Positions 163 to 43,800 of a stretch of 50,842 nt of DNA are shown one piece after another. Within the stretch, counting starts at the first letter, position 1. Each line of letters begins with the position of its first letter. The DNA is from Sandaracinus sp. (GTDB taxonomy: Bacteria > Myxococcota_A > Polyangia > Polyangiales > Houyiibacteriaceae), in contig PABA01000107.1 in assembly GCA_002699025.1 (NCBI GenBank), positions 1 to 50,842 on the forward strand. Direction: 5' to 3'. The translations under genes and the position numbers were made by a program. The notes under the pieces are model-generated. The model worked only from the letters and a program-made list of their open reading frames with translations, did no database searches and was not told the DNA's origin.

Positions 163-3100
163 ATGAAGCGTGACGCCAGGCTCGCCTGGGCCGTGCTCCT
201 CGTCCTCGGCCTCGCCGCCCTCTTCTGGGGCTGGAGCCGCGGCCCCGCGCTCAACGAGAAAGCGACCATGGCCGGCGAGGTCTCCCTCGACGCCATCGGC
301 TTCGACCAGGTCGTCGCCGTCCACGAGGACGACCCCTTCCTCCGCAAGGTCGGCGCCGTCGCCGTCAACTGGGCCGCCACCAACCGCGTCGGCATGACCT
401 TCGGCGTCCTCTTCGGCGCCGCCCTCATGACCCTCCTCGCCCTCATCGACCTCCGCCGCCTCCGCGGTCGCAGCCTCGGCGCGGGCGTCGGCGCCGGCCT
501 CGTCGGCATGGCCTCCGGCGCCCCCCTCGGCGTCTGCGTCAACTGCGCCGCCCCCATCGCCCAGGGCCTCGCCGCCGGCGGCAGCCGCCTCGAGACCACC
601 CTCGCCGCGATGATGGCCTCCCCCACCCTCAACGTCGTCGCCCTCCTCCTCCTCTTCACCCTCTTCCCCTTCCACGTCGCGGCCGTGAAGCTCGGCCTCA
701 CCCTCGTCCTCCTCCTCGCCGTCCTCCCCGCCCTCGCCCGCACCGTCCTCGCCGGCGAGCGCGACCGCTCCCTCACCCACGCCCTCCCCTCCCGCGAGGC
801 CGGCCCCCAGCCCCCCGCCTGGAGCGGTGGCGGCGCCCTCGACGGCGCCCGCTGGGTCGCCCACGCCTTCCTGAAGAACGGCTGGTTCGTCGCCAAGACC
901 ACCGTCCCCCTCATGCTCGCCGCCGGCCTCTTCGGCGCCCTCGTCGTCGTCCTCCTCCCCCTCGATCGGCTCCCGGAGATCGTCGCCGCCACCAGCCTCT
1001 CCGAGGCCCTCCTCTGGAGCCTCGCCCTCGCCCTCCTCGGCGCCGCCCTCCCCGTCCCCATCACCTTCGACGTCATCGTCTGCGCCGTCCTCTACGCCGC
1101 CGGCCTCCCCTTGCGCTTCGTCGCCGTCCTCCTCTTCACGCTCGGCGTCTACAGCGTCTACTCGGGCCTCGTGATCGGCCGGGGCATCTCGAAGCGCACG
1201 GCCCTCGTGCTCTTCGCCGCCGTCGCGGCCCTCGGCGTCGTCGCCGGCGACGTGACCCAGGCCTGGGCCAACGCCGCGCGCTCCTCCACGCTCGCCGCGC
1301 TCGACACCCTCGAAGGCGAGGAGCCCGGCTGGGCCGTCGCCCCGCCCGAGACGCGCCCCGTCGAGCTCCCGCGCCCGGCCTGGGAGCCGGTCGCCCCCGG
1401 CGTCGAGCGCCGCGCCGTCGCCTCGCTCCCCCGCGCCGAGGTCGACGAGGGCTTCACCGCCCTGGACGCCGCCGCGCTCGGCCTCGAGACCCCCGCGACC
1501 CTCACGCCCCTCCACATCGAATACCCCTTCGTCCAGGGCCGCGGACGCACCCTCGCCGCCGGCGACGTGCACGGCGACGGCCTCGACGACCTCGTCGTCG
1601 TCTCCGAGGCCGGCGTCGTCCTCCACGAGAACGCCGGCGGCACCTTCGGCGCGCGCCCCCTCGACCTCCCCGGCGTGCCCCTCTTCGCCGCGCTCGTCGA
1701 CCTCGACGCCGACGGCGCCCTCGACCTCTACGTGGGCGGGCTCCGAGGCGACCGCTGGCTCCCCGGCGACGGTGAGGGCGGCTTCGGCGAGGCGCGCGAG
1801 CTCCTCGTCGACGGGCGCTGGGTGGCGGCCGCCGGGTTCGCCGACCTCGACGCCGACGGCGACCTCGACGCCATCACCAGCCGCTGGTCGCCAGCCTGGC
1901 GCGGCCCCTGGAAGACCGCCGAGGCATCCAGCGACGTGCTCCTCCGCAACGACGGCGCCGGCCGGTTCACGCCCGAGCCCCTCCCGAGCCTCCCGGGGGC
2001 GGGCACGGCCGTGCTCCTCCACGACCTCGACGCCGACGGCCGCCTCGACGCCCTCGTCGGCCACGACTTCGCGCCCCCCGAGGGCGTCTACCGCGCGACC
2101 GACGCGGGCTTCGAGCGCGCCCCGGCGCTCCTCCCGGCGTCCACCCGCGACACCATGGGCATCGCCGCGGCGGACGTGGACGGCGACCTCGAGGAGGAGC
2201 TCTTCTTCGTCGACATCGCCCACGGCCACGGCGACGACCCCTACACCGGCGGGCGCGTCGAGGTGGAGGACGCCTGCGCCTGGATCGACGACCCGAGCTG
2301 CGCCGAGGACGCGCGCCTCACCCGCGCCTACCTCGCCGCGCGCCGCCAGCTCGACGTCGACGCCTGCGCCCTCTGGCCCGACTCGAACGCCTGCCGCGCC
2401 GCCTTCTTCCTCGGCACGGCGCATCGCTTCGAGGGCGACGAGGCCTGCCGCTTCCCGGCCGGCTGGGGCCTCTACCGCGGCCTCTGCGCGCAGAACGTGC
2501 AGGAGCCCTTCCAGCCGAGCGCCGCCGCCCGCCAGGCGCGCCCACCGCAGCGCCGGGGCGGCAACCTGCTGCTCGACCGCGGCGAGGAGGGCTGGCGCGA
2601 GGCCACCCCGCCGGCGCTCGCGCACACCGGCTGGACCTGGCAGCCGCGCTTCGTCGACGTGGACGGGGATGGCGACCAGGACCTCTTCGTCGCGACGGGC
2701 ACCCCCTCCGCCGTCGCGCGCCGCGAGAGCAACGCGCTCTTCCTGCGGGAGGGCGAGGGCTGGGAGGACGCCACCGAGCGCCTCGGGCTCCTCGACCGAC
2801 GCCCGACCGCGAACGCCGTCTGGATCGACCTCGAAGGCGACGGCGACCCGGACCTCGTCTCCCTGCCCATCCACGGCCCGCTCCAGGTGCGCCGCAACGA
2901 CCTCGGCGGGCAGCGCCTCGCCATCGGCCTCCGGGACGAGCGTGGCGGGCCCGGCGTGATGGCGCGGGTGCGCGTCGAGACCGAGGCGGGCATGCAGCTC
3001 CACGTCGTGCGCGCGAGCGGCGGCTACCTCTCCTTCGACGGCCTCACGCTCCACGTCGGCCTCGGCGACGTCAGCGGGGCGACCCGCATCGACGTCTCCT

Positions 3101-3411
3101 GGCCCGACGGAGCGGAGAGCGCCTACCCGGGCCCCTTCCCCGCCGGCCACCGCTACCGCCTGACCCACCCCGGCTACGCGCCGCCGACGTCCCCGGGCCC
3201 CGAAGTCGACGAGGGAGGCGGTGCCGACGCGGCGGGAGACGCCGACGCGGCGGGAGACGCCGACGCGGTGGGGGACGCCGACGCGGGGGGAGACGCCGCG
3301 GACGCGGGCTCCGGAGGCGACGACGCCGCCGAGGCCACGAGGGCCGACGCCGACGCGGACGCCGCGGCCGACCGGGAAGCCGACTCCGCGCCCTCGAATC
3401 CGGCACACTGA
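163..3411 (+). CDS. Permease (DUF318/SO_0444-like) fused to FG-GAP/VCBS repeats and an ASPIC/UnbV domain
   Basis: A 1,082-residue fusion from ATG 163; an in-frame ATG at 94 would add 23 His/Gly-rich residues, but the AT-rich -10-like patch before 163 argues for the later start. The first ~380 residues are hydrophobic with about eight membrane segments and contain GVCVNCAAPIAQGL followed by ASPTLN, the position where metal/organoarsenical permeases of this superfamily carry CSCG and ATPQT motifs. After the last membrane segment come about seven acidic repeats of the FG-GAP/VCBS type (such as VDLDADGALDLYVG and VDVDGDGDQDLFVATG), expected to bind calcium and fold as a beta-propeller outside the membrane, then an ASPIC/UnbV-like domain and an Asp/Ala tail. 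The domain assignments are by motif; transport substrate is unknown, with metal or metalloid efflux a guess from the family. The fusion itself is unusual. Confidence 0.75.
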   Translation: MKRDARLAWAVLLVLGLAALFWGWSRGPALNEKATMAGEVSLDAIGFDQVVAVHEDDPFLRKVGAVAVNWAATNRVGMTFGVLFGAALMTLLALIDLRRLRGRSLGAGVGAGLVGMASGAPLGVCVNCAAPIAQGLAAGGSRLETTLAAMMASPTLNVVALLLLFTLFPFHVAAVKLGLTLVLLLAVLPALARTVLAGERDRSLTHALPSREAGPQPPAWSGGGALDGARWVAHAFLKNGWFVAKTTVPLMLAAGLFGALVVVLLPLDRLPEIVAATSLSEALLWSLALALLGAALPVPITFDVIVCAVLYAAGLPLRFVAVLLFTLGVYSVYSGLVIGRGISKRTALVLFAAVAALGVVAGDVTQAWANAARSSTLAALDTLEGEEPGWAVAPPETRPVELPRPAWEPVAPGVERRAVASLPRAEVDEGFTALDAAALGLETPATLTPLHIEYPFVQGRGRTLAAGDVHGDGLDDLVVVSEAGVVLHENAGGTFGARPLDLPGVPLFAALVDLDADGALDLYVGGLRGDRWLPGDGEGGFGEARELLVDGRWVAAAGFADLDADGDLDAITSRWSPAWRGPWKTAEASSDVLLRNDGAGRFTPEPLPSLPGAGTAVLLHDLDADGRLDALVGHDFAPPEGVYRATDAGFERAPALLPASTRDTMGIAAADVDGDLEEELFFVDIAHGHGDDPYTGGRVEVEDACAWIDDPSCAEDARLTRAYLAARRQLDVDACALWPDSNACRAAFFLGTAHRFEGDEACRFPAGWGLYRGLCAQNVQEPFQPSAAARQARPPQRRGGNLLLDRGEEGWREATPPALAHTGWTWQPRFVDVDGDGDQDLFVATGTPSAVARRESNALFLREGEGWEDATERLGLLDRRPTANAVWIDLEGDGDPDLVSLPIHGPLQVRRNDLGGQRLAIGLRDERGGPGVMARVRVETEAGMQLHVVRASGGYLSFDGLTLHVGLGDVSGATRIDVSWPDGAESAYPGPFPAGHRYRLTHPGYAPPTSPGPEVDEGGGADAAGDADAAGDADAVGDADAGGDAADAGSGGDDAAEATRADADADAAADREADSAPSNPAH
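3223..3294 (+). repeat. four 18-bp tandem units coding a GDADA-type tail
   Basis: Four consecutive 18-bp units starting at 3223, 3241, 3259 and 3277, the first two identical, encode the Asp/Ala/Gly-rich C-terminal tail of the permease/FG-GAP protein. The acidic low-complexity tail continues to the stop. Slippage expansion is the simple explanation. Confidence 0.85.
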
Positions 3412-3418
3412 GCCGCCC

Positions 3419-3925
3419 ATGCTCTCCGCGCTCCAGCACCTGAGCGACGCCGTCACGGACACCGCCACCGGCTGGGTCGCCGACTCGGCCCGCGGCGGCC
3501 CCGGCGCCCCCGCCCTGGCCATCGTCGCGGCCGCCCTCGTCGGCGTGCTCGTCTACGCCCACCACCGGCGAGCCCGCCGCCGCGCCCATGCGCGCCGCCG
3601 CCTCGCGCGCCAGCTCGACCGCCGCTACGGGCCCCTCCACGCGCTCCGGATCGAGCTCGACGCCGGAGCCGATCCCGCTTCCATCGCCCGCCGCGCCGCC
3701 GAGATCCTCGCGACGACCCGCTCCCTCGCCGAGGGCGACGCCGACGCGAGCCCGATCCACGCCTTCGCCGCCGACCCCGAAGGGGCCTTCCCGCGCGACG
3801 CCCTCGACGCCCTCCTCGCGCCGCTCTCCGAGCTCGACGCGCGCCATCGGCGCCTGGTCGCGGGCGAGCCCGAGCCGCCGGCGGAGGGGCCGAACGACCC
3901 GCCGGGCGGGGAGCTCGTGCGGTAG
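3419..3925 (+). CDS. small single-pass membrane protein, unknown function
   Basis: A 168-residue protein starting 7 bp after the stop of the permease/FG-GAP gene, so probably cotranscribed with it. It has one clear membrane segment at about residues 33-50 (ALAIVAAALVGVLVYAHH), followed at once by a very Arg-rich stretch, which predicts the C-terminal part in the cytoplasm. The remaining ~110 residues are helical-looking and acidic, with no motif I recognise. The frame is open further upstream to 3221, but that stretch overlaps the preceding gene's acidic repeats and is rejected. Whether it assists the upstream permease cannot be told from sequence. Confidence 0.6.
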   Translation: MLSALQHLSDAVTDTATGWVADSARGGPGAPALAIVAAALVGVLVYAHHRRARRRAHARRRLARQLDRRYGPLHALRIELDAGADPASIARRAAEILATTRSLAEGDADASPIHAFAADPEGAFPRDALDALLAPLSELDARHRRLVAGEPEPPAEGPNDPPGGELVR

Positions 3926-3952
3926 CGACGGGGCCCGCTGGCGTCGCGACCG

Positions 3953-3961
3953 TGCTAAGCC
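3953..3961 (+). promoter_or_regulatory. extended -10 element before the kinase gene
   Basis: TGC-TAAGCC (hexamer 3956-3961) ends 6 nt before the GTG at 3968. There is no Shine-Dalgarno sequence in the space, which fits a leaderless or near-leaderless transcript and supports the GTG start over ATG 3977. Confidence 0.45.
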
Positions 3962-3967
3962 CGCCCC

Positions 3968-6900
3968 GTGGGGGAGATGCGCGACCAGCTACCCGGCGGC
4001 TACCGCCTGAGCGAGGAGCTCGGGCGCGGGGGCGTCGGCACGGTCTACGCCGGGACGGGACCCGACGGCGCCGAGGTCGCCATCAAGGTCGCCGAGCCGC
4101 GCGAAGGCGTCGTCCGCGCCGAGTGGCTCCGCCGCGAGGCCTCCCTCGCCGCCCGCCTCCGCCACCCGCACATCGTCCAGCTCCTCCACACGGGCACCAC
4201 CGCCGATGGCCGACCCTTCCTCGTCTACGAGCGCGTCCACGGCGCCTCCGTCGAGGCCCGCGCCGACACGCTCACCACCGAGGAGATCGCCGCCCTCGGC
4301 GCCACCCTCTTCGAGGCCCTCGCCTACGCCCACGACGCCGGCGTCCTCCACCTCGACGTCAGCCCGGGCAACCTCCTCCTCCGCGACGCGGACCACGCCC
4401 TCCGCCTCACGGATTTCGGCCTCGCCACGCCGCGCGACCGCTCCCGCAGCCGCCAGCGCGCCCTCGTCGCCGGCACCCCCGGCTACCTGAGCCCCGAGCA
4501 GGCCCTCGGCGGCGGCGGCGTCAGCCCGCGCTCCGACCTCTTCGGCGCCGGCGCCGTCCTCTACCGCCTCATCGCCGGCTTCCCGCCCCACTTCGGCCCG
4601 GACAGCACGGAGATCATCCGCCACACCCTCTACGGCGAGCCTCTCCCCCTCAAGCCCCGCGCCGGCCTCTACTTCGGCCCCGGCCTCTGCGCGCTCGTGG
4701 AGCGCCTCATCGCCCGCGATCCGGAGCGCCGCCCGCCCTCCGCCGACGCCGCCCTGGCGCTCTGGCAGGAGGCCTGCGCCGAGCGCATCTCCCACGCCGG
4801 CGACCCGCACGAGCCGACGCCCGCCTTCGGCCTCGACCGCGGTGAGGTCGCCGAGACCCTCGAGCGGGAGCCCGCCCCGACGCGCCCCTACGCCCCGCGG
4901 GGCGCGCCCACGCTGCCCCACAAGAGCGCCCCGCGGCCCGCGCGCACCGACGAGCTCCCCACGGCCGCCGAGCGGGCCCCGACCCCGCACGTGCCCCTCA
5001 CGCGGCCCTCCCTCCCGCTCCCGGAGGGCGTCGACGAGGCGGTGCTCGCGCGCCTCCCGCCCCGCCACTCCGGAGGCCTCGTGCGCCTCGTCGGCGCGGC
5101 CGGCAGCGGACGCTCGACCGCGATGCAGCAGGTGATCGCCGCGCTTCACCGCGCCGACGTCCCGGTCGCGTGGATCACCGGCCGCCGCGGCGAGCCCACG
5201 CCCCCGCTCGAGGCCCTCGCCGGGCTCGTGCTGCAGCTCGCTGGAGCGGACGGCGGCCCGCCCTGGGCCTCCGCCGAGCGCCTCAGCGCCCGCCTCGAGC
5301 GGGCCGGCGCAGGCGAGCTCCGGGCCGGCCGGGAAGCCCTGGTCGCCGGCCTCCTCGGCACGGCCCGCCGCGCGGACCTCGGCGGCGCGCGCCTCGAGCT
5401 CTTCCGCATCGTCCAGCTCCTCCGCCCGCCGGGCCGCCCCCTCGTCTTCTGCATCGACGACGCCGACACGCTCGACGCGGCCAGCCGCAGCGTGCTCGAG
5501 GACCTCGCCGCCGTGGACGTGGGGGTGCTCCTCGTCGAAGAGCGCGACGCCCCGGCAGCCGAGGCGGCCGAGCCCCGCGACCCGAACGTCGTCACGGTGC
5601 CCTCCCTCGATCCGCCCCTCGCCGATCGGCTCCTCACCGGGGGCGCCCCCCCGGACGAGGTCGGCGCGCGCCTCGACGCGCTCCTCGCCCGGCGCACCCC
5701 CGCCGAGCGCCGCGTGCTGGCCGCCGCCGCGCTCTTCCGGGGGGACGCCCCGCGCCGCGCCCTCGCCGCCCTCGCCGCCGAGGAGGGCGGCGCCGCCGAG
5801 GTCGTGACCCAGCTCGAGGTCCGCGGCCTGCTCCGCTCCGTCGTCGCCCCGGCCTCCCCGATCGAGCCCCGCGTCCGCCTCGCCTGCCCCGGCCTCGTCC
5901 GTCGCGCCCTCCCGACGGGCGAGGAGGCCCGCGCGCTCGCCCGACGCGCCGCCCGCTGGCTCTCCCGCGAGAGCCTCGATCCGGGCCACGCCGTCCTCCT
6001 GCGCATCGCCGACTTCGCCACCGCCAGCGACGACCTCCTCCTCGCCGCCTTCGCCGCCGCCGAGGCGGGCCGGCGCGCCGCCGTCGCCGACGACCCGAGC
6101 GCCGCCACCAGCCTCGCCCGCGCCCTCGAGCTCGCCGAGCGCGCCCCCGGCGCCATCGACGAGGCCGGTGTCTGGGTCGAGCTCGCCGACGAGCACCTCC
6201 GCCGCGGCGATCACGAGGCCGCCGAAGAGGCCGCCCTCCGCGCCCTCGAGACCAGCTCTGCTCGCCGCGAGGTCCTCCGCGCCCGCGCCCTCCGCCTCGC
6301 CGCCCGCGCCGCCTCCGATCGCGGCGCCAGCGCCCTCGCCCTCACCCGGCTCGAAGAGGCCATCGCCCTCCTCGAGCCCGACGGCGATCCCATGGAGCTC
6401 GCCCTCGCCCACTCGAGCCTCGGCTGGCAGCTCGGCTACGTGCTCGACCGGAACGCCGAGGGCATCGCCCACGGCCGGCGCGCCCTCGAGGTCGCCGCGC
6501 GCATCGACGCCCCCGCCTTCCAGGCCCAGCTCTGCGGCCGCCTCGGCGCCAACCAGCTCCGGGCCGGCGACTGGGACGGCCAGCTCGGCACCAACCTCCG
6601 CGACCTCGGCCTCAGCCTCCTCGCCGGCGACGTCCAGGGCGTCATGCGCGCCCACATCAACGTCGGCGTCTGCCACACGAACCGCGGCCTGCTCGCCCTC
6701 GCCCGCGCCCACACCGAGGAGGGGGCGCGCCTCGCCGCCGCCCACGGCGCGCGCATCGCCGAGATGATCGCCGAGAACAACCTCGCGATGCTCGCCGCCG
6801 ACGAAGGCCGCCTCGCCGACGCCCGCGCCCACGTCGCGCGCTCCCTCGACCGCGCCCGCGAGCGGGGCCTGCCGGGGCTCGCCGAGACCTGGGCCGTGCT

Positions 6901-7240
6901 CGTCCGCGTCGCGCTCGAGGAGGGCCAGGCGGACGAGGCCCGGGAGGCCGCCCGGAAGGTCCGCGAGGTCGCCCGCGCCTCCGAGCGGACCCTCGCCGCC
7001 CGCGTGGAGGCGCGCCTCGACGCGGGCGGCGCCCGGGACGCGCTCCGCGCCACGCTCGCGGAGGTCGTCGACGATCCTTACGAGCGCGCGACGACCCGGC
7101 TCGCCCTCGCCGCCGCCGAGCGCGCCGCCGGCGACGCGGCGACGGCCACGCGGCTCGAGGCGGAGGCCGACGCCGCCCTCGAGGCCCTCGGCGCCGACCC
7201 GGCTCTCGAGCGCCGGCGCTGGGCCCCGAGCCTCCGCTGA
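3968..7240 (+). CDS. Ser/Thr protein kinase-ATPase-TPR fusion protein
   Basis: 1,090 residues from GTG 3968 (1,087 from ATG 3977). Residues ~10-270 are a Hanks-type kinase: glycine loop GRGGVG (19-24), ATP lysine K40 in VAIKV, catalytic loop HLDVSPGN (128-135), DFG (149-151) and SPE in place of APE (175-177). The loop is atypical: HRD has become HLD and the usual Lys two residues after the catalytic Asp is Ser. A Pro-rich linker leads to an ATPase module whose P-loop reads GAAGSGRST (376-384), with Arg where Walker A normally has Lys, and a good Walker B (LVFCIDDAD, ~492-500). The last ~500 residues are Ala/Leu-rich TPR-like helices. No membrane segment is seen, so it is probably a soluble STAND-like signalling protein. 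Kinase activity is plausible; ATPase activity is uncertain. Confidence 0.85.
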   Translation: MGEMRDQLPGGYRLSEELGRGGVGTVYAGTGPDGAEVAIKVAEPREGVVRAEWLRREASLAARLRHPHIVQLLHTGTTADGRPFLVYERVHGASVEARADTLTTEEIAALGATLFEALAYAHDAGVLHLDVSPGNLLLRDADHALRLTDFGLATPRDRSRSRQRALVAGTPGYLSPEQALGGGGVSPRSDLFGAGAVLYRLIAGFPPHFGPDSTEIIRHTLYGEPLPLKPRAGLYFGPGLCALVERLIARDPERRPPSADAALALWQEACAERISHAGDPHEPTPAFGLDRGEVAETLEREPAPTRPYAPRGAPTLPHKSAPRPARTDELPTAAERAPTPHVPLTRPSLPLPEGVDEAVLARLPPRHSGGLVRLVGAAGSGRSTAMQQVIAALHRADVPVAWITGRRGEPTPPLEALAGLVLQLAGADGGPPWASAERLSARLERAGAGELRAGREALVAGLLGTARRADLGGARLELFRIVQLLRPPGRPLVFCIDDADTLDAASRSVLEDLAAVDVGVLLVEERDAPAAEAAEPRDPNVVTVPSLDPPLADRLLTGGAPPDEVGARLDALLARRTPAERRVLAAAALFRGDAPRRALAALAAEEGGAAEVVTQLEVRGLLRSVVAPASPIEPRVRLACPGLVRRALPTGEEARALARRAARWLSRESLDPGHAVLLRIADFATASDDLLLAAFAAAEAGRRAAVADDPSAATSLARALELAERAPGAIDEAGVWVELADEHLRRGDHEAAEEAALRALETSSARREVLRARALRLAARAASDRGASALALTRLEEAIALLEPDGDPMELALAHSSLGWQLGYVLDRNAEGIAHGRRALEVAARIDAPAFQAQLCGRLGANQLRAGDWDGQLGTNLRDLGLSLLAGDVQGVMRAHINVGVCHTNRGLLALARAHTEEGARLAAAHGARIAEMIAENNLAMLAADEGRLADARAHVARSLDRARERGLPGLAETWAVLVRVALEEGQADEAREAARKVREVARASERTLAARVEARLDAGGARDALRATLAEVVDDPYERATTRLALAAAERAAGDAATATRLEAEADAALEALGADPALERRRWAPSLR

Positions 7241-30283: not shown

Positions 30284-30568
30284 ATGACCGACGCCCAGAC
30301 GAAGAAGAAGCTCCTCATGCGGCTCAAGCGCGCCGAAGGGCAGCTCGCCGCCGTGCGCCGCATGGTCGAGGACGACAGCTACTGCGTGGACGTGCTGGTC
30401 CAGCTCGCCGCCGTGCGCGGCGCCCTGGGCCGGAGCGCCGACGTGCTGCTCCAGTCGCACCTCGAGCACTGCGTCGTCCACGCCTTCGAGGAGGGCGACG
30501 CCGACGAGCGTCAGGCCAAGGTCGACGAGCTCCTCGACGTCTTCGCCCGCTTCGGAGGCCGCTCGTGA
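30284..30568 (+). CDS. csoR: CsoR-family copper-sensing repressor
   Basis: 94 residues of the DUF156 family. The Cu(I) signature is present with exact spacing: C34, H59 and C63 (25 and 4 residues apart), in DSYCVDVL and QSHLEHCVV. This C-H-C set marks copper sensors, distinct from RcnR, FrmR or CstR. It binds the palindrome just upstream and releases it when Cu(I) is bound. Its stop overlaps the start of the next gene by 4 bp (GTGA), so sensor and transporter are translationally coupled. Confidence 0.9.
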   Translation: MTDAQTKKKLLMRLKRAEGQLAAVRRMVEDDSYCVDVLVQLAAVRGALGRSADVLLQSHLEHCVVHAFEEGDADERQAKVDELLDVFARFGGRS

Positions 30569-31974
30569 TCGCCTACCTCGAGGCCGTCTGGGCCGTGCTC
30601 CTCGAGCTCGCGCCCTGGCTCCTCCTCGGCGCCGGCGTCGCCGGCCTCCTCCACGTCGCCCTCCCCGAGGGCTTCATCCACCGGGCATTCCGCGGCCGCC
30701 TCGGCGTCCTCAAGGCCGTGACCCTCGGCGTCCCCCTCCCCCTCTGCTCCTGCGGCGTCATCCCCGCCGGCCTCGGGCTGAAGAAGGACGGCGCCTCCGA
30801 CGGCGCGTCCATCGGCTTCCTCGTCGCGACGCCCCAGACCGGCGTCGACTCGGTGCTCGTCAGCGCGTCCTTCCTCGGCTGGCCCTTCGCCCTCTTCAAG
30901 CTCGCGAGCGCCTTCCTGCTCGGCCTGGTCGGCGGCCTCGCCACCGAGGCCGTCACGCCCGGCGACCGGGAGGCCGCCGCGCCGGCGCCGCGGGAGGCGA
31001 AGCGGACCTGGCGCGACGCCCTGGACCATGCGCTCGACATCGTCCGGAGCATCTGGCGTTGGCTCGCCTTCGGCGTGCTCGTGAGCGCGGCCCTCACGGT
31101 CTTCGTGCCGGAGGACGCCTTCGCCGGGCTCTCGGCGTACGGCGGCGTGCTCGCCATGCTCGCCGTGCTGGCGATCTCGGTCCCGCTCTACGTCTGCGCG
31201 ACGGCCTCCGTGCCCATCGCCGCGGCGCTTGTCGCCGGTGGCTTCCCGCCCGGCGCGGCGCTCGTCTTCCTGATGGCCGGCCCAGCGACGAACGTGGCGA
31301 CCATCGGCGCCATCCGGAAGGCCTTCGGCGGGCGCGCGCTGGCCATCTACCTCGGCACCATCGTCCTCGGGAGCGTCGCCCTCGGCTGGGCCTTCGACTT
31401 CGTCCTGGTCGGCGAGCTCGGTGTCCACGCAGGCGAGCACGCGCACCACGCCGGCCCCATCGCCATGGCCACGGCCGGCCTGCTCGTGGCGCTCATGGCC
31501 TGGTTCGCCGTGGACGACCTGCGGGTCGCGCTCCGCCGCGCCCCCACCGCCGGCCCGCTCGAGCTTCCCGTCGACGGGCTCACCTGCAACGGCTGCGTCC
31601 GCAAGCTCGAGGGCCAGCTCGGCGAGGCCGGCCTCACGGGCTTTTCGGTGCAGCGGACGGAGGGCGGCCCTCATAGCGGCGTCGTCCAGCTGGCCGCCGG
31701 CGCGGACCTCGCGCGTCTCGCCGAGCTCGTCCGCGCGGCCGGCTTCGAGCCCATCACCGACGCCGCCCCTCGCGTCGAGCTCGACGTCGAGGGCCTCACC
31801 TGCAACGGCTGCGTCCGCAAGCTCGAGGGGAAGCTCTCCGGCGCCGAGGGCGTCACCGGCGTGGAGGTCGTGCGCGAGGAGGACGCGCCCCGCGGCCACG
31901 CCATCGTCCACGGCGCCATCGACCTCGAGCGGGTCCGCGACCTCGTCCGCGAGGCCGGCTTCGAGCCCGCGTAA
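30565..31974 (+). CDS. SO_0444-type metal efflux permease with two C-terminal HMA domains
   Basis: 469 residues from GTG 30565. The first ~320 residues form about eight membrane segments in two halves, with VPLPLCSCGVIPAGL (C61, C63), ATPQTGVDS and, in the second half, ATASVPIAAAL and MAGPATNVA; these are the paired motifs of this permease family. A His-rich loop (EHAHHAG) follows. The tail has two heavy-metal-associated domains, both with GLTCNGCVRKLEG, metal-binding Cys 341/344 and 413/416. Control by a CsoR with the Cu(I) signature points to copper export. The tail may deliver Cu(I) to the channel. The first gene of the window encodes a distant relative without HMA domains. Confidence 0.88.
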   Translation: MIAYLEAVWAVLLELAPWLLLGAGVAGLLHVALPEGFIHRAFRGRLGVLKAVTLGVPLPLCSCGVIPAGLGLKKDGASDGASIGFLVATPQTGVDSVLVSASFLGWPFALFKLASAFLLGLVGGLATEAVTPGDREAAAPAPREAKRTWRDALDHALDIVRSIWRWLAFGVLVSAALTVFVPEDAFAGLSAYGGVLAMLAVLAISVPLYVCATASVPIAAALVAGGFPPGAALVFLMAGPATNVATIGAIRKAFGGRALAIYLGTIVLGSVALGWAFDFVLVGELGVHAGEHAHHAGPIAMATAGLLVALMAWFAVDDLRVALRRAPTAGPLELPVDGLTCNGCVRKLEGQLGEAGLTGFSVQRTEGGPHSGVVQLAAGADLARLAELVRAAGFEPITDAAPRVELDVEGLTCNGCVRKLEGKLSGAEGVTGVEVVREEDAPRGHAIVHGAIDLERVRDLVREAGFEPA

Positions 31975-34852: not shown

Positions 34853-37800
34853 TCAGACCTGGATCTGGATCCCCAGCGCCTCGCGCAGCTTGAAGTAGTT
34901 CTCGCTCACGCTGAAGAGCACCAGCTCCTTGAGCTTGTCCTTCGGCGGCAGGTCCACGCTGCCCTCGGGCGGCAACACCTCGATCATCTTCTTCGCCGTC
35001 ACCAGGTCGTTGCACACCAGGAAGCCCGCCCGGCACGCCGAGAGCTCCACGGTCTGCATCCACCGCTTGATGTCCGCACGCCCACCCTGGTCGTCCACGA
35101 ACTTCCGGCACACGGCCCGGAGCCCATCCATCTGCGCCGCGTTCATGTGCTGCGAGAGCGGCTGCGCCCACTGATCCACCTGCGGATCCGCCGGCCCCGT
35201 CCCCGAGAGCCGCAGCGCCGCGAGCAGCAGGAAGCGCAGCTCCGTGTGCGAGCTGAAGAGCGTCCGCACGAAGTGCTCGCTCAGGTAGTACGTCAGGAAG
35301 CGACCGAGCAGGAACATCAGGTCCTGCGGGCTGTAGCCGCTCAGCAGCGTCGAGCCGCTGATCACCGCCGGCGGGTTCGACCCCGGCAGGTGCGCGAGCC
35401 CCCCGGGCGTCTGCTGCTGCAGGAAGAGCCGCGGCTGCGTCGGGATGTTCAGCACCTGCTGCACGAAGCCGAAGGTCCGCGCGAAGGTCACCGTCGACGA
35501 CGCCGGGTCCACCGGCTTCAGCTTGTCGATCTTCAGCGCCTTGTCCGACGCCTGCTTCACCGCCAGCACCGCCGGCGCCATCAGCTCCATGATCTTGCTG
35601 ACGTAGCGGTCCTCGTCCGGGTGCAGCAGCTCGCTGAACCACAGGTTCCGCTCCACCCGGCCGCGCGGGCGAATCGGCCCCTGCGGCCGGTACTGCGTGT
35701 AGAACTGCTGCTGCTCGGCGTCCGCCTTCTGCAGGAAGCTCAGCGTCGCCGCCAGGCACCACGCCTTGTCGTAGGCGCGCGCGTCGAAATAGAGCTTGTA
35801 GAGCGCCCGGTACGAATCCACCCGGTAGGGGTCGTTCCGGAGCAGCCACTGGTGCTCCTCGATGGCCATGTCGACCCGGTCGCCCATGAGCGTGTACAGC
35901 TCGGCGAGGATCTGGTGCTGCTGCGGGTCCCCGGGCTTGAACGTCGCGGCCGTCTTGAAGGCCTCCGCCGCCGCCTCGTAGTTCCGCTGCCGATCTCGGT
36001 AGATGATCCCGAGCGTGTAGAAGAGGTTGTGCTTCAGGTCCTCGCGGGCCGGCTCCTTGATGATCCGGTGGATCATCTTCCGGTACGCCCGCTCGAGCGC
36101 CTTCCAGTCCTTCTTCGCGTTCAGGATCTTGTTGATCGCCTCGAAGGCCTTCAGCTGGTCCGGATCGAGATCGAGCGACTCGTTGAACTTGTCGAGCGCC
36201 GCGTCCGCGTCCTTCAGCTCGTCACGGGTGATGACGGCGATCGTGTACTTGTACTTCGCCTTGACCTTGTCCCGCGTCTCCAGCGCCTCGATCTGGTCGA
36301 TGATCTGGATCGCGTCCTCCCACTGCTTGGTCTCCTGGTAGGCGACCAGCAGCTTGTGGAGCATCCGGTGGTCCTCCGGCTTGATGTCGGAGGCCTCGGC
36401 CCAGGACTCGATGGCCTTCTGCGCGTTCCCGACCTTCTCCTTCCAGAGCGTGCCGATGGCGTCGAGCAGGTCGAAGCGCTCCTCGAGGTCCGTGACCGTC
36501 TCGAGGATCTGCTTCTTGAAGTGGATGACCTGCTGCCACTCGTTCTGCTTCTCGTAGAGCCCGACCACGGCCTCGAGCGTCGGCCGGTGGAACGGGTCCT
36601 CCTCGAGCGCCTTGTCGAACATGTTGAGCGCCTTGCGCCGCTCGCCCTGCTCGCGCTTGATGACGCCGAGGCGGAAGAAGATGTCGGTGATCTCGTCCGG
36701 CGCGAGCGAGTCGCGGTGGTGGACGAGGAGCATCTGGTAGAACTTGAAGGCCTTCGCCCAGTCCTCCGCCGCGTAGTGGCTCGCCGCCACCCCGAGCAGC
36801 GTCGGCAGGTGCGTCGAGTCGATCTGGTAGGCCTTCTCGTAGGCCTTGATCGCCTCCGCGGTCTTCCCGAGCTTCATGCTCGTCTCGCCGAGCGTGAAGG
36901 AGAGCCGATGCTGCTCGTCCGGCTCCCGCTTGCCGCTCCGCTTCACGAGCATCTCGAGCAGCGGGAACGCCTCCTCGTAGCGCTCCTGCTTCTGATACTC
37001 GTCCACGAGCGGCATCGCCGCGTCCTCGTTGTCCGGGTCCTGCTTGAGCGCGGCCTCCCAGACCTCGATGGCCTTCGCGTGCTCGTCGAGCCGGTCCTCG
37101 TAGAGGCCGCCGAGCGCGACCAGCAGCTCGGCCACGCGCCGCGGGCTCTGCGTGTAGCTCGCCTCCTGCTCGTAGAGCTTCGCGGCCGCGAGCCAGTCCC
37201 CGCTGTCGAGCTGGATGTCCCGCATCGCCGCGATCGACTCCAGGTGCCCCGGCTCGATGTCGAGGGCCATCTGGTACTTGTCGAGCGCCGAGACCCGGTC
37301 GCCGAGCTCCTTGTCGAGGATGCGGCCGCTCCGGAAGAGCAGGTCCACCTGCTGCTGCGGCTCCTGCACCAGCCGCGCGAGCTGCTCCATCATCTCGAGC
37401 GCCGAGGCGTGGTCCCCGCGCTTGTCGTAGATGCGCGTCAGCGCGTCCAGCGCCTCCACGTCCTGGTCGTCGATGTCGAGGACCGCCAGGTAGGCGTCCA
37501 CCGCGCGATCCGGCTCGTCCAGGTCGCCGGCGAAGGTCTCGCCCATCGCCTTGTACACGCGGATCCGCTCGCTCCGATCGGGCGTCGCGGTGACGTGCCG
37601 CTCATACGTGTCGATGAGCTTGTCCCAGTCCTTCATGTGCCGGTAGAGCCGCGCGAGCGCCTGGAGCGCGCCCTCGTGCATCGGGTCGATCTCCAGCACC
37701 TGCTCGTGGCACTGGGCCGCCTCGCCGGGCTTGATGAACTCCTCCTCGTACATCCCGGCCATCTGGGTCAGGACGCCGATGCGCTCCTTCTCCGTCGAGA

Positions 37801-40800
37801 CGACCTCGAACTGCACGCGGAGCACCTCGAGCAGGTCCTGCCAGCGCTCCGTGCGCGCGTAGAGCCGCTCGAGCCCCTTGAGCGCCTGGAGGTTGAACTC
37901 CTCCTGCTGGCGCACCGCCGAGTAGGTCGCGATGGACCGCTCGACGTCCTGCGTCCGGTCCTCGTAGACCTCCGCGAGCTTGAGCTGCGTCGCGATCAGC
38001 TCCTCGCCCTCGACGGCCTTCGTCTTCTGCTCGAGGAGCTCCACCAGGCGCTGCCAGTTGCCGCGCTCCCCGTAGATGCGCTCGAGCTTCTCGATGGCGT
38101 CGACGTTCGAGGGCATCACCTCGAGCGCCCGCTCGTAGTAGCCCGTCGCCTGGTCCGGGATGTTCAGGTGGGTCGCCGAGAGGTCGCCCATCTTCACGTA
38201 GGTCTCGGCGAGGATCTCCGGATCGTCGGCCGTCTGAACGATCTGCCCGTAGGTCTGCGCGAGCGCGTCCCACTGCTGCGTCTTCTCGTACAGCTCCGCC
38301 GTCGAGATCATCAGGTGGACGTTGCCCGGGTCCACCGCCTGCACCTGCTGGTAGTAGGGCAGCGCGTAGTCCGGGTGATCGAGCTCCTGCCCGTACCACT
38401 TCGCGCACTGCAGGCAGAGGGTGATCTTCGTGTCCTGGTCCTGCGCCTCCTGGAGCGCCTCGTTCGCCGCCGTGAGCAGCTCGTTCCACTTGTTCGTGGC
38501 GCGCGTCACGCGCGTGAGCTCCTCGACCGTCGGCTTGTCCGCGTAGTCGAGGCTCCAGGCGACCTGGAGGGCGTCGAAGGCCTGGTCCTTGTCGTCGAGC
38601 TTCTCCTCGTAGACCTTCGCGACCTTGCCCAGGTAGCGCACGCTCTCCGAGAGGTCCTCGGTCGACTCGACGCGCACCAGGTACATGTCGATCAGGTCCT
38701 CCCAGCGCTGCGCGTCCCGGTGCAGGACCTCGAGCTGCTGGAAGGCGAACTCGTGCATCGGGTCGAGGTCGAGGATGCGCTGGTAGGCGCTCGTCCCGCC
38801 GTCCGGGTTGTCGAGCTGCTCGGCCCAGGTGCCCGCGATCGTGAGGAGCTGCTCGACCTGCTTCTCGGGCGTCTCCTCGAAGGCGAGGACCCGCTTCTCC
38901 ATGACGCCGACGGCGTCCTCCCACATCCCCTCCGTGCGGTGGATGTGCTCGAGGGCGTCCATGGCCGCGAAGTTCGACGGGTTCAGCTCGATGGCCCGGT
39001 TGTAGGCGTCCACCGCGTCCATCGGCTGCTGCAGCTCGACGTTGTAGAGGTGGCCGAGCTGCATGTAGACGTTCTCGATCTCGGCGTCTTCGAGCGTCGC
39101 GGCGCCCACCTCGATCACCCGGTGCAGCGTGTCCACCAGCTCGTGCTGCTGGTTCCCGGCCCGGTAGATCTCGGCGATGTGGAAGAGCGCGAAGGTGTTG
39201 CCCGGATCGATGTCCAGGACGCGCTCCCAGCTGTCGAGAGCGTTGCGCTCGCGCTCGAGCTTCTCGTACCAGATGCGCCCGAGGTCGGCGTAGACCTGCA
39301 CGCGCATCGCGTCGTCGTCGACGACGTTCGCCTCGCGCTCGAGGATCTCCACCAGGTCCGCCCAGGCCTCCTGCTCGGCGTAGATGGTCCCGAGGGCGTT
39401 CAGCGCCATCGGGTCCTCACCGCGGAGGTCGAGGACCTCCTTCCAGAGGTCGATGGCCTTCGCCGGGTCGTTCAGCTGCGTGCTGGCGAGGTACGCCATC
39501 TTGCTGAGCACCTCGGCGCGCTGCGTGTCGCCGAAGACGACCTCGATCTCCTTCTGGAACGCCGCGTAGAGCGCGTCCCAGGCCTGCTGGCGCGTGTAGA
39601 TCTCCTGGAGCGCCGTGATCGACTCGGCGTGCTCCGGCTCGAGGTTCCCGAGCACCTGGTCGTAGACCTGGATCGCCTGCTCGGTCTGCCCGAGGTCGTT
39701 CTCGAGCACCTGCCCGAGCCGGTAGTGGAACTCGACCAGGTCCTGCGGGATGTCCGACGCCTCGATGCGCTTGCGGAGCACGTCCGCGAGCGCCGCGTGG
39801 GCGCCGTTGGCCTCGTAGATGCGGTCGAGGGCCGCGAGCGCCTCCTCGTCCTTCACGTCCACGCCGAGCACGTAGCGGTAGGCCTCCTCGGCCTTCGCCA
39901 CGTCGGCGAGCTCCTCCTCGTAGACGCGCGCGAGGCGCTTGCCGAGGAAGACCTTGTGCTCCGCCTGCTCGGTCATCTGGATGCCGTCGGCGTAGGTGCT
40001 CGCGAGCTGGCCCCAGCCGTCGAGCATGCCGCCGAGGCGTTCGACCTCCATCAGCGTGTGATCGTGCGCCGGGTCCTCGAGGAGGGCCCGCTGCATCCAG
40101 AGGAAGGCGCGCTCGTGGTCCGCCGCGCGCTCCTCGGCGATCTCGGAGATGCGGTGCATCATCGAGACGCGCTCGATCGGGTCGCCCTGGTAGTTGAGCT
40201 GCACCTCGTGGACGTTGAGCAGCCGGTCCCAGGCCTCGCTCATGCGGTAGAGCGGCTCGAGGATCTCGCCGATGCGGAGCGGCTCCACGCCGTCCGAGAA
40301 GAGCAACTCGAGCGCGGTCATCGCCGGCTGGTGCTCGGGCGCCGCCGCCAGGATCTCCTGGTACTGCTCGATGGCCTTCTCGGTCTGGCCGAGGTGGTTC
40401 TGGAAGACCTGCCCGAGCCGGAACTGGAGCGTGAGGATGTCGTCCGGGCTCGCGGCGACCTGCGTCTCCTTCTCCAGGATGTCCGCCAGCTCGGCCCAGC
40501 GCTCGGTCGCTTCGTAGAGCCGGTCGAGCGCCTCGATGGCCTGCACGTGCCCCGGGTCCGCCTCGATCACGAGCTTGTAGCGCTCGATGGCCGCGTCGAC
40601 GTCGCCGACCTGGACCTCGTAGATCTGGGCCGTGCGGAGCGCCATCTCGATGACGTCGGTCGGGTGCTCCTCGCGGATCTTCTGGATCTCGACGTCGTAG
40701 AGGCGCGTGACCTCCTTCCACTGATCGGTCATCTCGCCGAGCCGCTCGAGGCTGCCCAGCGTGAGATCGTGGCGGTTGTCGAGGGGGAGCGCCCGCGCGT

Positions 40801-43800
40801 AGGCCTGGAAGGCCGCCTGCGGGTCGTCGAGCTGCATCTCCGAGAGCTCGGCCACCTGGTGCAGGAGGTCGACCTTCCGGATCGGATCCTCCTCGTGGGC
40901 GATCTGCACCTCGTGGACGCTGACGAGCTTCTGCCACTCGCCCATCTGCCGGTAGACCGGCTCGAGCACGCCCGCCGCGGCGACCGGCTCGACGCCCTCC
41001 GAGACCATGGACTCGAGGGCGTTCAGCGTGGGCTCGTGGTCCGGCGCGACCTCGAGGATCTCGCGGTAGATGTCCACGGCGCGGATCGCGTCGTCGAGCC
41101 GGTGATGCCAGAGGTCCGCGATGCGGTAGCGGTAGGAGATGACCTCGCTCGGATCGGCCGCGAGATCGGCCTCCCGCTCGAGGACGCTGAGCAGCTCCTG
41201 CCACTGCTCGGTGGCCTGGTAGAGCGCGTCGAGGCGCCCCAGCGCCGTCAGATCGTCCGGGTCGATCTCGAGGATGCGCTGGTAGCTGTCGATGGCCTTC
41301 GCGTTGTCCCCGAGCTCCCGCTCGTAGACCGCGCCGACCTCGACGTAGAGCCCCTTCTTCTCGTCCGGATCGACGACGATGTCGGCCTTCGTCGTGTAGA
41401 CCTCGAGGAGCTTCTCCCAGTTCTCGAGCCGCAGGTTCAGCTCGATGAGCTTGTCGAGGCTCTGGACGTCCTCGGGGTCGATCTCGAGCGCCTTGTGGTA
41501 GACGCCGATGGCGTCGTTCGGCCGCTCGAGGAGCTCCTCGTAGATGGCCGCCGCGCGGTAGAGGTAGTCCTTCTGCTCGTCCGGCGAGGTGAGCATCGTG
41601 GACTTCTTCAGGTAGATCTGCGCGAGGTCCTCGTAGCGCTCGGAGAGCTGGTAGAGGCGCTCGAGGGCCGTCGCCGCCTCGAGGTGCATCTCGTCGAGCT
41701 CGAGCACCTTCACGTAGTGCGCGATGGCGCCCGGGTGATCGCCGAGCTGGTTCTCGCGGATCTGCGCGGCCTTCACGTGGAGGTCGGCCGCGAGCATCGG
41801 ATCGTCGAGATCCTGGAGCTGCTCCTCGTAGGTCTTGGCGAGGGCCTCGGCGTCGCCGATCACCGGCGTCAGGCGCTCGAGCTGCTCCTGCGTGGAGGCG
41901 TTGCTCGGGTCCTCCGCGAGGGCGCGCGAGTAGCTTTCGAAGGCCGCGTTGTAGTCGTCGAGGGCGACCTCGTAGAGCTCGGCGATGCGATGGAGGAGCT
42001 CGACCCGGCGCTCCGGCGAGGAGGCGTGCTTCGCCTGGATCTCGTGGACGCCGATGAGCTTCCGGACCTCGCCCGCGTCGCGGTAGATGGGCTCCAGGAT
42101 CTCGGCGATGAGGAGCTGGTGCTCCGGCGCCTGGAGGAGCCGCTCGAGGTTCGCGAGCGCCGCCTCGTTGGACGGCTGCCGCATCAGCACCTCGCGGTAG
42201 ATCTCGATGGCCGCCTCGGTGGCGTCCATGCGCTGCTCGCGCGGCTCGGCGAGACGCAGCATGAGCTGGATCTGCTGCTCCTCCTCGACCGCGAGCTCGA
42301 GGCGCCGGTTCACGTTGTCGGCGAGCTCGGCCCACATCTCCTGGCGCTGGAAGAGGTCGTCCAGGGCCGCGAGGGCGCGCTGCGAGGTCGGATCGATCTC
42401 GAGGATCTCGTTGTAGACGCGGATGGCCGTCTCGGGGCTCTCCAGGAACTCGTCGTGGATCGCGGCCATCTGCGCGAGGAGCTCCTCCTTCTCGGTGGGC
42501 TCCATGGTCTGCTCGGCGCGCGCGCGGAGCACCTGCACCAGGTCGCTCCAGCGCTCCGTGCGCCGGAAGAGCGCGTCGAGCTGGAGCAGCACCTCGACGT
42601 CGCCCTCGTCGTCCTCGAGCACCTTGCGGTACGAGGCGACGGCGCCGTCCACGTCCTCGAGCTGCGTGTCCTGGATCTGCGCGGCCTTGATCCACAAGGC
42701 GCGGCGCAGCATCGGATCGTCGTTCGAGCCGGCGAGCTCCCCGAGGAGCGTGACGAGCTGCGGGAAGCGGTCCTGCGAGATCGCGATGGTCTCGAGCCGG
42801 GCCAGCGTGTCCTCGCTGCCCGGCTGCTCCGCGAGCGCCTCCGAGTACGCACCGAAGGACTTCTCCGCGTCCTGGAGCTGCTCGCCGTAGACCTCACCGA
42901 TCTTCGTCAGCAGCTCGAGGCGCTCGTCGCTCGTCTCGGCGCCCGCGTGGAGCACCCGGAGCGCACGGATCAGCGGCTCGTAGTGGCCGCCGACCTCGTA
43001 CACGGGCTCGAGGATGCGCGCCGCCGTGACCCCGACCTCTTCGTCGTCGAGGAGCGCTTCGAGCGCCTCGCGGCCGCCCTCGTGCTCCGGGAGGATCGTG
43101 AGGACCTCCCGGTAGAGCTCCACGGCGCGCGGCTTGTCGGCGAGGTGCTGCTCGAGGGCGCGGCCGAGGCGGAACTTCAGCGCCGCCATCTCCTCGTGGC
43201 TCTCGGCGAGCTCGATGCGCCGCTCGAGCGTCGAGGCGAAGTCCTCCCAGCGCTCCTGCTGCTCGTAGAGCCGGTCGAGGGCGCGGAAGGCGTCGACCTC
43301 GCCGTGCCCGTACTCGCCGAGGATGTCGTTGTACGCCGCGATGGCGTCGTCGGCGCTCTCGAGCTTCTCCTCGATGAGCGCGGCCCGCTGGTAGGCGAGC
43401 TGCCGGCGCGCGTCGTCGTCCGTCTCGAGCTGCATGCGGCGCTCGAGCACCTCGAGGAGCTCGGCCCACTTCTCCGTCTGCTCGTAGAGCTCCGTGAGGG
43501 CCGTGATGGCCTCGACCTGATCGCCCCGCAGCTCGTAGACGCCGCGGTACTGGGCGATGGCGTCCTCGACCTTCTCCACCTTCCGGAGCAGGCCGCCGAA
43601 GGTGAGCCGCAGCTCGATCTCGTCGTCCTCGGCTTCGGCGCCCTCGATGGCCTTCGCGTAGGCCTCGAGCGCCTTGTCCCAGTCCTTCGTCGCCTCGGCG
43701 AGGCGCTCGACGTCCTCGCGGACGACCTCCTGCTGGGGCATCACGGCGAAGGCCTCGAGGTACTTCTCGTAGGCCGTGTCCGCCTTCCGCAGCCGCTCCT

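Follow-up and report, generated by a model that had tools for sequence, protein, structure and literature searches.

A gene near the start of the window (the whole stretch of Sandaracinus sp. DNA that was analyzed, 50,842 nucleotides) joins an ArsP_1-like permease, an FG-GAP propeller and an UnbV domain in one chain. This is a new architecture made of known parts, conserved and unnamed, and the fused protein is a real family, not a sequencing error. Taken as one combined reading, we favor a working elevator-type inner-membrane transporter with a tethered CRTAC1-like periplasmic domain, at a probability of roughly 0.55. Full-text literature searches, for which most subscription papers were out of reach, found no paper on the fusion.

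The gene lies in a single frame that contains no stop from base 1 of its contig (C118) until 3409–3411. The window begins at the contig end, with at most 162 nt visible 5′ of the gene, and the start codon may be either of two ATGs, at 163 (1082 residues) or at 94 (1105 residues, 23 more). Along the 1082-residue product (P0001), Pfam recognizes ArsP_1, six FG-GAP_3 stretches (E = 8.9e-29) and UnbV_ASPIC (E = 1e-10), which bears out the domain order given in a preliminary description of this DNA (single frame, 163–3411). The junction residues 382–430 stay in frame. A scan of window positions 3000–4000 for promoters and terminators found none. The features are as follows.

163–3411, + strand: whole fused gene (P0001, 1082 aa; other possible start at 94)
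163–1305, + strand: ArsP_1-like permease, residues 1–381, helical in the model
535–546, + strand: CVNC motif, residues 125–128, at helix break 123–125
1051–1071, + strand: PVPITFD motif, residues 297–303, at the second helix break 296–301, pseudo-symmetric to the first
1306–1452, + strand: linker from permease to propeller, residues 382–430, varying between relatives
1453–2232, + strand: FG-GAP propeller, first part, residues 431–690, with DxDxDG at 513, 561 and 621
2239–2535, + strand: helical insert, residues 693–791, with six cysteines at 705, 713, 735, 744, 762 and 775
2566–2898, + strand: FG-GAP propeller, closing part, residues 802–912, with DxDGDG at 832
2914–3165, + strand: UnbV/ASPIC beta domain, strands up to residue 1001, Pfam match 934–986
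3193–3408, + strand: Asp/Ala/Gly-rich tail, residues 1011–1082, low model confidence
30565–31974, + strand: canonical ArsP_1 permease with CSCG in its first half and a C-terminal HMA domain, a comparison gene outside the fusion

An alignment of the permease alone found 145 relatives across named genomes, and the best 80 were examined, with fusion status scored by profiles built from ten fusions. In 74 of these best 80, permease and propeller lie in a single frame, and fused copies occur in Myxococcota, Alpha- and Gammaproteobacteria, Planctomycetota, Bacteroidota and Peregrinibacteria. Four of the other six are split (L055, L075, L069 and L118), one is truncated where its contig ends (L068), and one has its partner outside the sequence examined (L062). 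The closest relative, 58% identical, belongs to a Myxococcota MAG from another genome assembly (L006/L041/L044) and has an unbroken junction; a 38% identical relative (L007/L042/L054) has the identical unbroken layout. Additionally, 13 records of a plasmid collection match, and in three records a single place matches 80% or more of the query; eight Roseobacter plasmids align over most of the chain at 31–35% identity. One of these eight plasmid copies (L037) carries an annotation as three genes and was excluded from the alignments. The gene is carried by cultured Roseobacters, as well as by Maricaulis. Few genomes of the window's phylum encode the permease family (10 of 377 at E ≤ 1e-20); UnbV_ASPIC by itself is common, and 65 of the order's 96 genomes have it. 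Collectively, a search for proteins with the same fusion, as the preliminary description had proposed, reveals a widespread family and not a one-off.

A full fusion was also observed on a contig assigned to Candidatus Peregrinibacteria (L074). Peregrinibacteria are thought to have no outer membrane; if the contig is correctly binned, the protein also works in such a group.

Split copies were placed in a tree of 70 rows, 68 of them permease domains of the family, rooted on two canonical ArsP_1 paralogues from the window's own genome. Left out were L131, L133 and L129 (same contigs as L046, L069 and L118, judging by length), L105 (a stop within the permease) and L138 (partial); thinning then reduced the other 89 rows to 70 and removed L075. 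The split copies nest within fused lineages, with two changes needed, which the well-supported branches also force; the outgroup branches are long, making the root less certain than this nesting. Because they are nested in this way, the split pairs look like secondary fissions. The preliminary description had named homologues that are always split as the finding to count against it; 74 of 80 are fused. Where split, permease and propeller are adjacent genes, and the permease survives as a gene of its own. One genome with one split and one fused copy also holds a permease copy with no propeller within 11 kb (L128, 6925–8613).

Both split and fused copies inform the topology. In L055, L075 and L069, the separate propeller opens with basic residues, followed by a hydrophobic core and then small residues, which is signal-peptide-like by eye, and the propeller of those relatives would therefore lie outside the inner membrane. 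For the fused permease, the N-terminus and loop 93–106 are rich in Lys/Arg and loop 341–346 is basic, while loops 26–58 and 265–278 are acidic. This charge pattern therefore suggests that the C-terminus is outside; the long loop 191–228 is of mixed charge and uninformative.

The window permease is borderline for ArsP_1 (PF03773), scoring 29.2 bits in the whole chain, 32.4 when isolated and 31.5 in the genome search, near the curated Pfam cut-off of 32.3. All 46 aligned fusions match the profile at E ≤ 0.001. The cysteine motif noted in the preliminary description indeed lies in the permease core, at residues 125–128, and none of the 91 permease domains lacks CxNC or PVP...D. An alignment of 45 sequences contains 39 invariant permease columns, including residues at both helix breaks. 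Only C125 and C128 are conserved among the permease cysteines, and the second-repeat C307 occurs in 7 of 46. Moreover, an additional N-terminal helix and a conserved loop precede the ArsP_1 match. NCBIfam SaoE was considered as the identity of the permease and rejected (24.9 bits against a cut-off of 325).

The alignments for structure prediction had 46 rows (A3) and 45 rows (A4). The AlphaFold2 model of the whole chain (46 rows; pLDDT 84.6, pTM 0.82) shows helices at 5–381, mostly propeller strands at 408–690, the helical insert at 693–791, propeller again at 802–912 and UnbV strands at 918–1001, with low confidence at 1011–1082. The permease-only model (pLDDT 89.0, pTM 0.88) has two broken, hairpin-like helices, 105–122/126–138 around CVNC and 279–295/302–312 around PVPITFD. 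A sequence search for a solved chain matching the permease found none. Similarly, Foldseek returned no match to the permease model at E ≤ 0.001 (best E 0.028), an absence that is no proof of a new fold. A second structural aligner retrieved mostly DASS, CNT, TRAP and ArsB transporters, with a top Z of 12.0 (286 residues, rmsd 6.1 Å), just short of the value of about 13 below which the aligner advises caution with helical proteins.

For the outer half, the best solved relative is animal CRTAC1 (9etn), with a sequence E of 5.6e-22, a fold E of 6.7e-17 and a TM of 0.67 by target length. FG-GAP_3 is matched by 46 of 46 aligned fusions and UnbV by 45 of 46. The Dx[DN]xDG motif occurs four times in exact form within residues 431–1000, whereas 2000 shuffled versions had 0.09 copies on average and never more than 2. 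Calcium blades with DxDxDG motifs of this type are described in the accessible part of PMC3123361. Each of the six insert cysteines is kept in 44–45 of 46 aligned members. The preliminary description missed this conserved insert, as well as the breadth of the family and CRTAC1 as the closest solved relative of the outer part. The tail at 1011–1082 holds an 18-nt tandem repeat (3223–3298) and is missing from the other nine rows of alignment A1, save for a short stretch in L006. In several deep-branching members (L111, L134–L137), permease and propeller are separated by a longer region of cysteine-pair repeats, which may be an enlarged version of the six-cysteine insert.

Based on these observations, we propose that the permease half works as an ArsP_1-like secondary transporter of the ion-transporter superfamily in the inner membrane, with putative transport activity and direction, and that the CRTAC1-like domain is tethered to its C-terminus on the periplasmic side. 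The cargo would be bound at the tips of the two broken, hairpin-like helices of the model. Helical hairpins commonly serve as gates in elevator transporters, according to the accessible part of PMC7329351; from this and the modeled helix break, we infer that CxNC is located at the cargo site. Because this motif has two cysteines, the cargo is probably thiol-reactive, and a soft metal(loid), an organo-metalloid or a thiol compound would fit. The outer propeller, braced by calcium and presumably by disulfides, may receive, bind or pass on the cargo, or might dock the transporter to a secreted partner. Since the halves are kept fused, or neighboring where split, they very likely act together. Against the transporter reading, no cargo gene consistently adjoins the fusion, and the contexts vary by lineage. 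The borderline ArsP_1 score, the Foldseek result, the Z below the caution level, the uninformative loop 191–228 and the L128 permease copy without a nearby propeller likewise count against it. For mutation, exact targets exist in the invariant CxNC motif and in the six cysteines of the outer part.

The contexts were surveyed at 90 loci, of which at least two are duplicates (L044 of L041, both 17878 bases long, and L054 of L042, apparently the same contigs); neighbor genes were called by a greedy longest-frame script, and their order is approximate. Queries of the T2SS type match within about 10 kb at 41 of the 90 loci, all 41 alphaproteobacterial by title, although the A24 and GspG queries may also match pilus genes. 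Small secreted (about 140 aa) or tail-fibre-like neighbors occur at 55 of 90. Repeatedly, the fusion comes last in a series that opens with a prepilin peptidase and continues with two Sel1 proteins, a secreted protein (about 140 residues) and a fibre-like protein that is also secreted. In marine Alphaproteobacteria (e.g., L060, L078, L084, L101 and L110), the secreted protein of about 140 residues is conserved and accompanied by a fibre-like one; a Pfam scan of one neighbor of each type gave no match. On some Roseobacter plasmids, the surroundings of the fusion gene include genes annotated as Gsp or encoding giant Ig-like proteins, and a giant Ig-like or DUF11 protein follows some plasmid copies. 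The window's own lineage showed no surroundings of the type II secretion kind. Secretin genes exist in the window's genome, on other contigs. AMP-binding, asparagine synthase and PqqD neighbors occur at 6, 5 and 3 of the 90 loci, respectively.

At L083, L099 and L115, the fusion lies near PqqD, asparagine synthase, sulfotransferase and glycosyltransferase genes, surroundings resembling a peptide natural-product cluster, and L083 also has a transglutaminase-like gene near the fusion. A DUF3179 neighbor of L042 recurs only in L054, apparently the same contig. In the window, a gene downstream of the fusion (3968–7240, + strand) combines a serine/threonine kinase, an AAA ATPase and TPR repeats in one protein, and a 3384-residue frame with many TPR repeats occupies 34853–45007 (− strand).

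Several other explanations were weighed against the tethered transporter. The contig end at which the window starts would suit an assembly or frameshift artefact joining two genes, as the preliminary description had considered, but independent relatives in several phyla are unbroken (74 of the 80 examined loci are fused, including isolates and complete circular plasmid records), as is the 58% identical copy in another assembly, and the fused chain is therefore not an assembly accident; independent assemblies rule this candidate out, leaving it a negligible probability. It is also very unlikely that the protein is a membrane-anchored surface protein whose permease has decayed into an anchor for the propeller. 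The outer part is large, and outer domains frequently stand alone (65 of the order's 96 genomes have UnbV_ASPIC), yet the 39 invariant permease columns in 45 sequences include both helix breaks, CxNC and PVP...D persist in 91 of 91 domains, and the permease is retained as a separate gene after fission. Of the two readings offered in the preliminary description, a mere anchor or a transporter with a large external binding platform, the latter is the better supported.

The conserved cysteines allow a thiol-disulfide relay, in which CxNC would carry reducing equivalents across the membrane and reshuffle disulfides of the insert or of a secreted partner. CxNC in 91 of 91 domains and the six outer cysteines in 44–45 of 46 members agree with this, and CcdA offers a precedent, being an elevator that moves reducing equivalents via a cysteine pair, in the part of PMC7329351 that could be consulted. 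However, Pfam scans of the chain and of 20 neighboring proteins found no thioredoxin-like domain, a conserved second-repeat cysteine is missing (C307 in 7 of 46), and the fold matches are solute transporters, which makes a relay unlikely. Equally doubtful is a secretion or surface-display module, in which the permease would help to build, and the outer half would dock, type II secreted fibre-like proteins. The T2SS-type genes (41 of 90 loci), the secreted fibre-like or 140-aa neighbors (55 of 90), the recurrent peptidase-Sel1-Sel1-small-tail-fusion order and the Gsp or giant Ig-like genes on some Roseobacter plasmids are consistent with such a module. In contrast, all 41 T2SS loci are alphaproteobacterial, largely from one clade, with queries that may catch pilus genes; T2SS queries found no match around the window's closest relative (L041/L044); and the Peregrinibacteria copy L074 and the NRPS- or asparagine-synthase-type neighbors elsewhere fit badly. 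A broader scheme, which we consider speculative and distinctly improbable, is a new transporter class that would deliver thiol-reactive cargo or reducing power into the attached propeller, which would in turn load or mature secreted surface proteins; in marine Alphaproteobacteria it would act alongside type II secretion, and elsewhere alongside natural-product-type clusters.

The tethered transporter can be compared with several known systems. ArsP is a methylarsenite efflux permease, as described in the accessible part of PMC6205960. The fusions resemble its Pfam family, with a profile match in 46 of 46 and a Cys/Pro motif like that of canonical paralogues. However, they have CxNC (91 of 91), whereas the paralogues L125 and L126 of the window's genome have CSCG, a motif read from these two proteins and not from a family definition; because CxNC replaces CSCG, we call the permease ArsP_1-like and not ArsP. 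The window protein further differs in its large outer domain, its extra N-terminal helix and loop and its borderline score. The ArsP_1-HMA protein of the window (30565–31974) likewise joins an ArsP_1 permease to a C-terminal add-on, but there the add-on is a heavy-metal domain and the motif is CSCG. In a local profile comparison (E = 7.1e-5), the CVNC stretch aligns to the second-half motif of this protein and not to its CSCG, which makes any pairing of the repeats tentative. The HMA domain of the same protein contains two GLTCNGC-like motifs, and a frame that is CsoR-like by eye lies just upstream. CcdA and DsbD have a conserved cysteine in each repeat, whereas the second repeat of the fusion permease has none (C307 in 7 of 46).

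The predicted permease fold is similar to those of DASS, CNT, TRAP-M and ArsB, with modest fold support and no sequence match to a solved chain. TRAP transporters rely on a separate soluble substrate-binding protein, according to the accessible part of PMC9352664; in contrast, the Pfam matches of the fused chain are ArsP_1, FG-GAP and UnbV only, with no Q subunit or DctP-type binding protein among them. Finally, the outer half shares with CRTAC1 and other ASPIC/UnbV proteins an FG-GAP propeller closed by an UnbV domain, in the same fold as solved CRTAC1, but it is joined to a transporter and carries a six-cysteine helical insert. By pairing an ArsP_1-like transporter with a CRTAC1-like domain across phyla, this family offers a testable partner for the widespread FG-GAP/UnbV domain.
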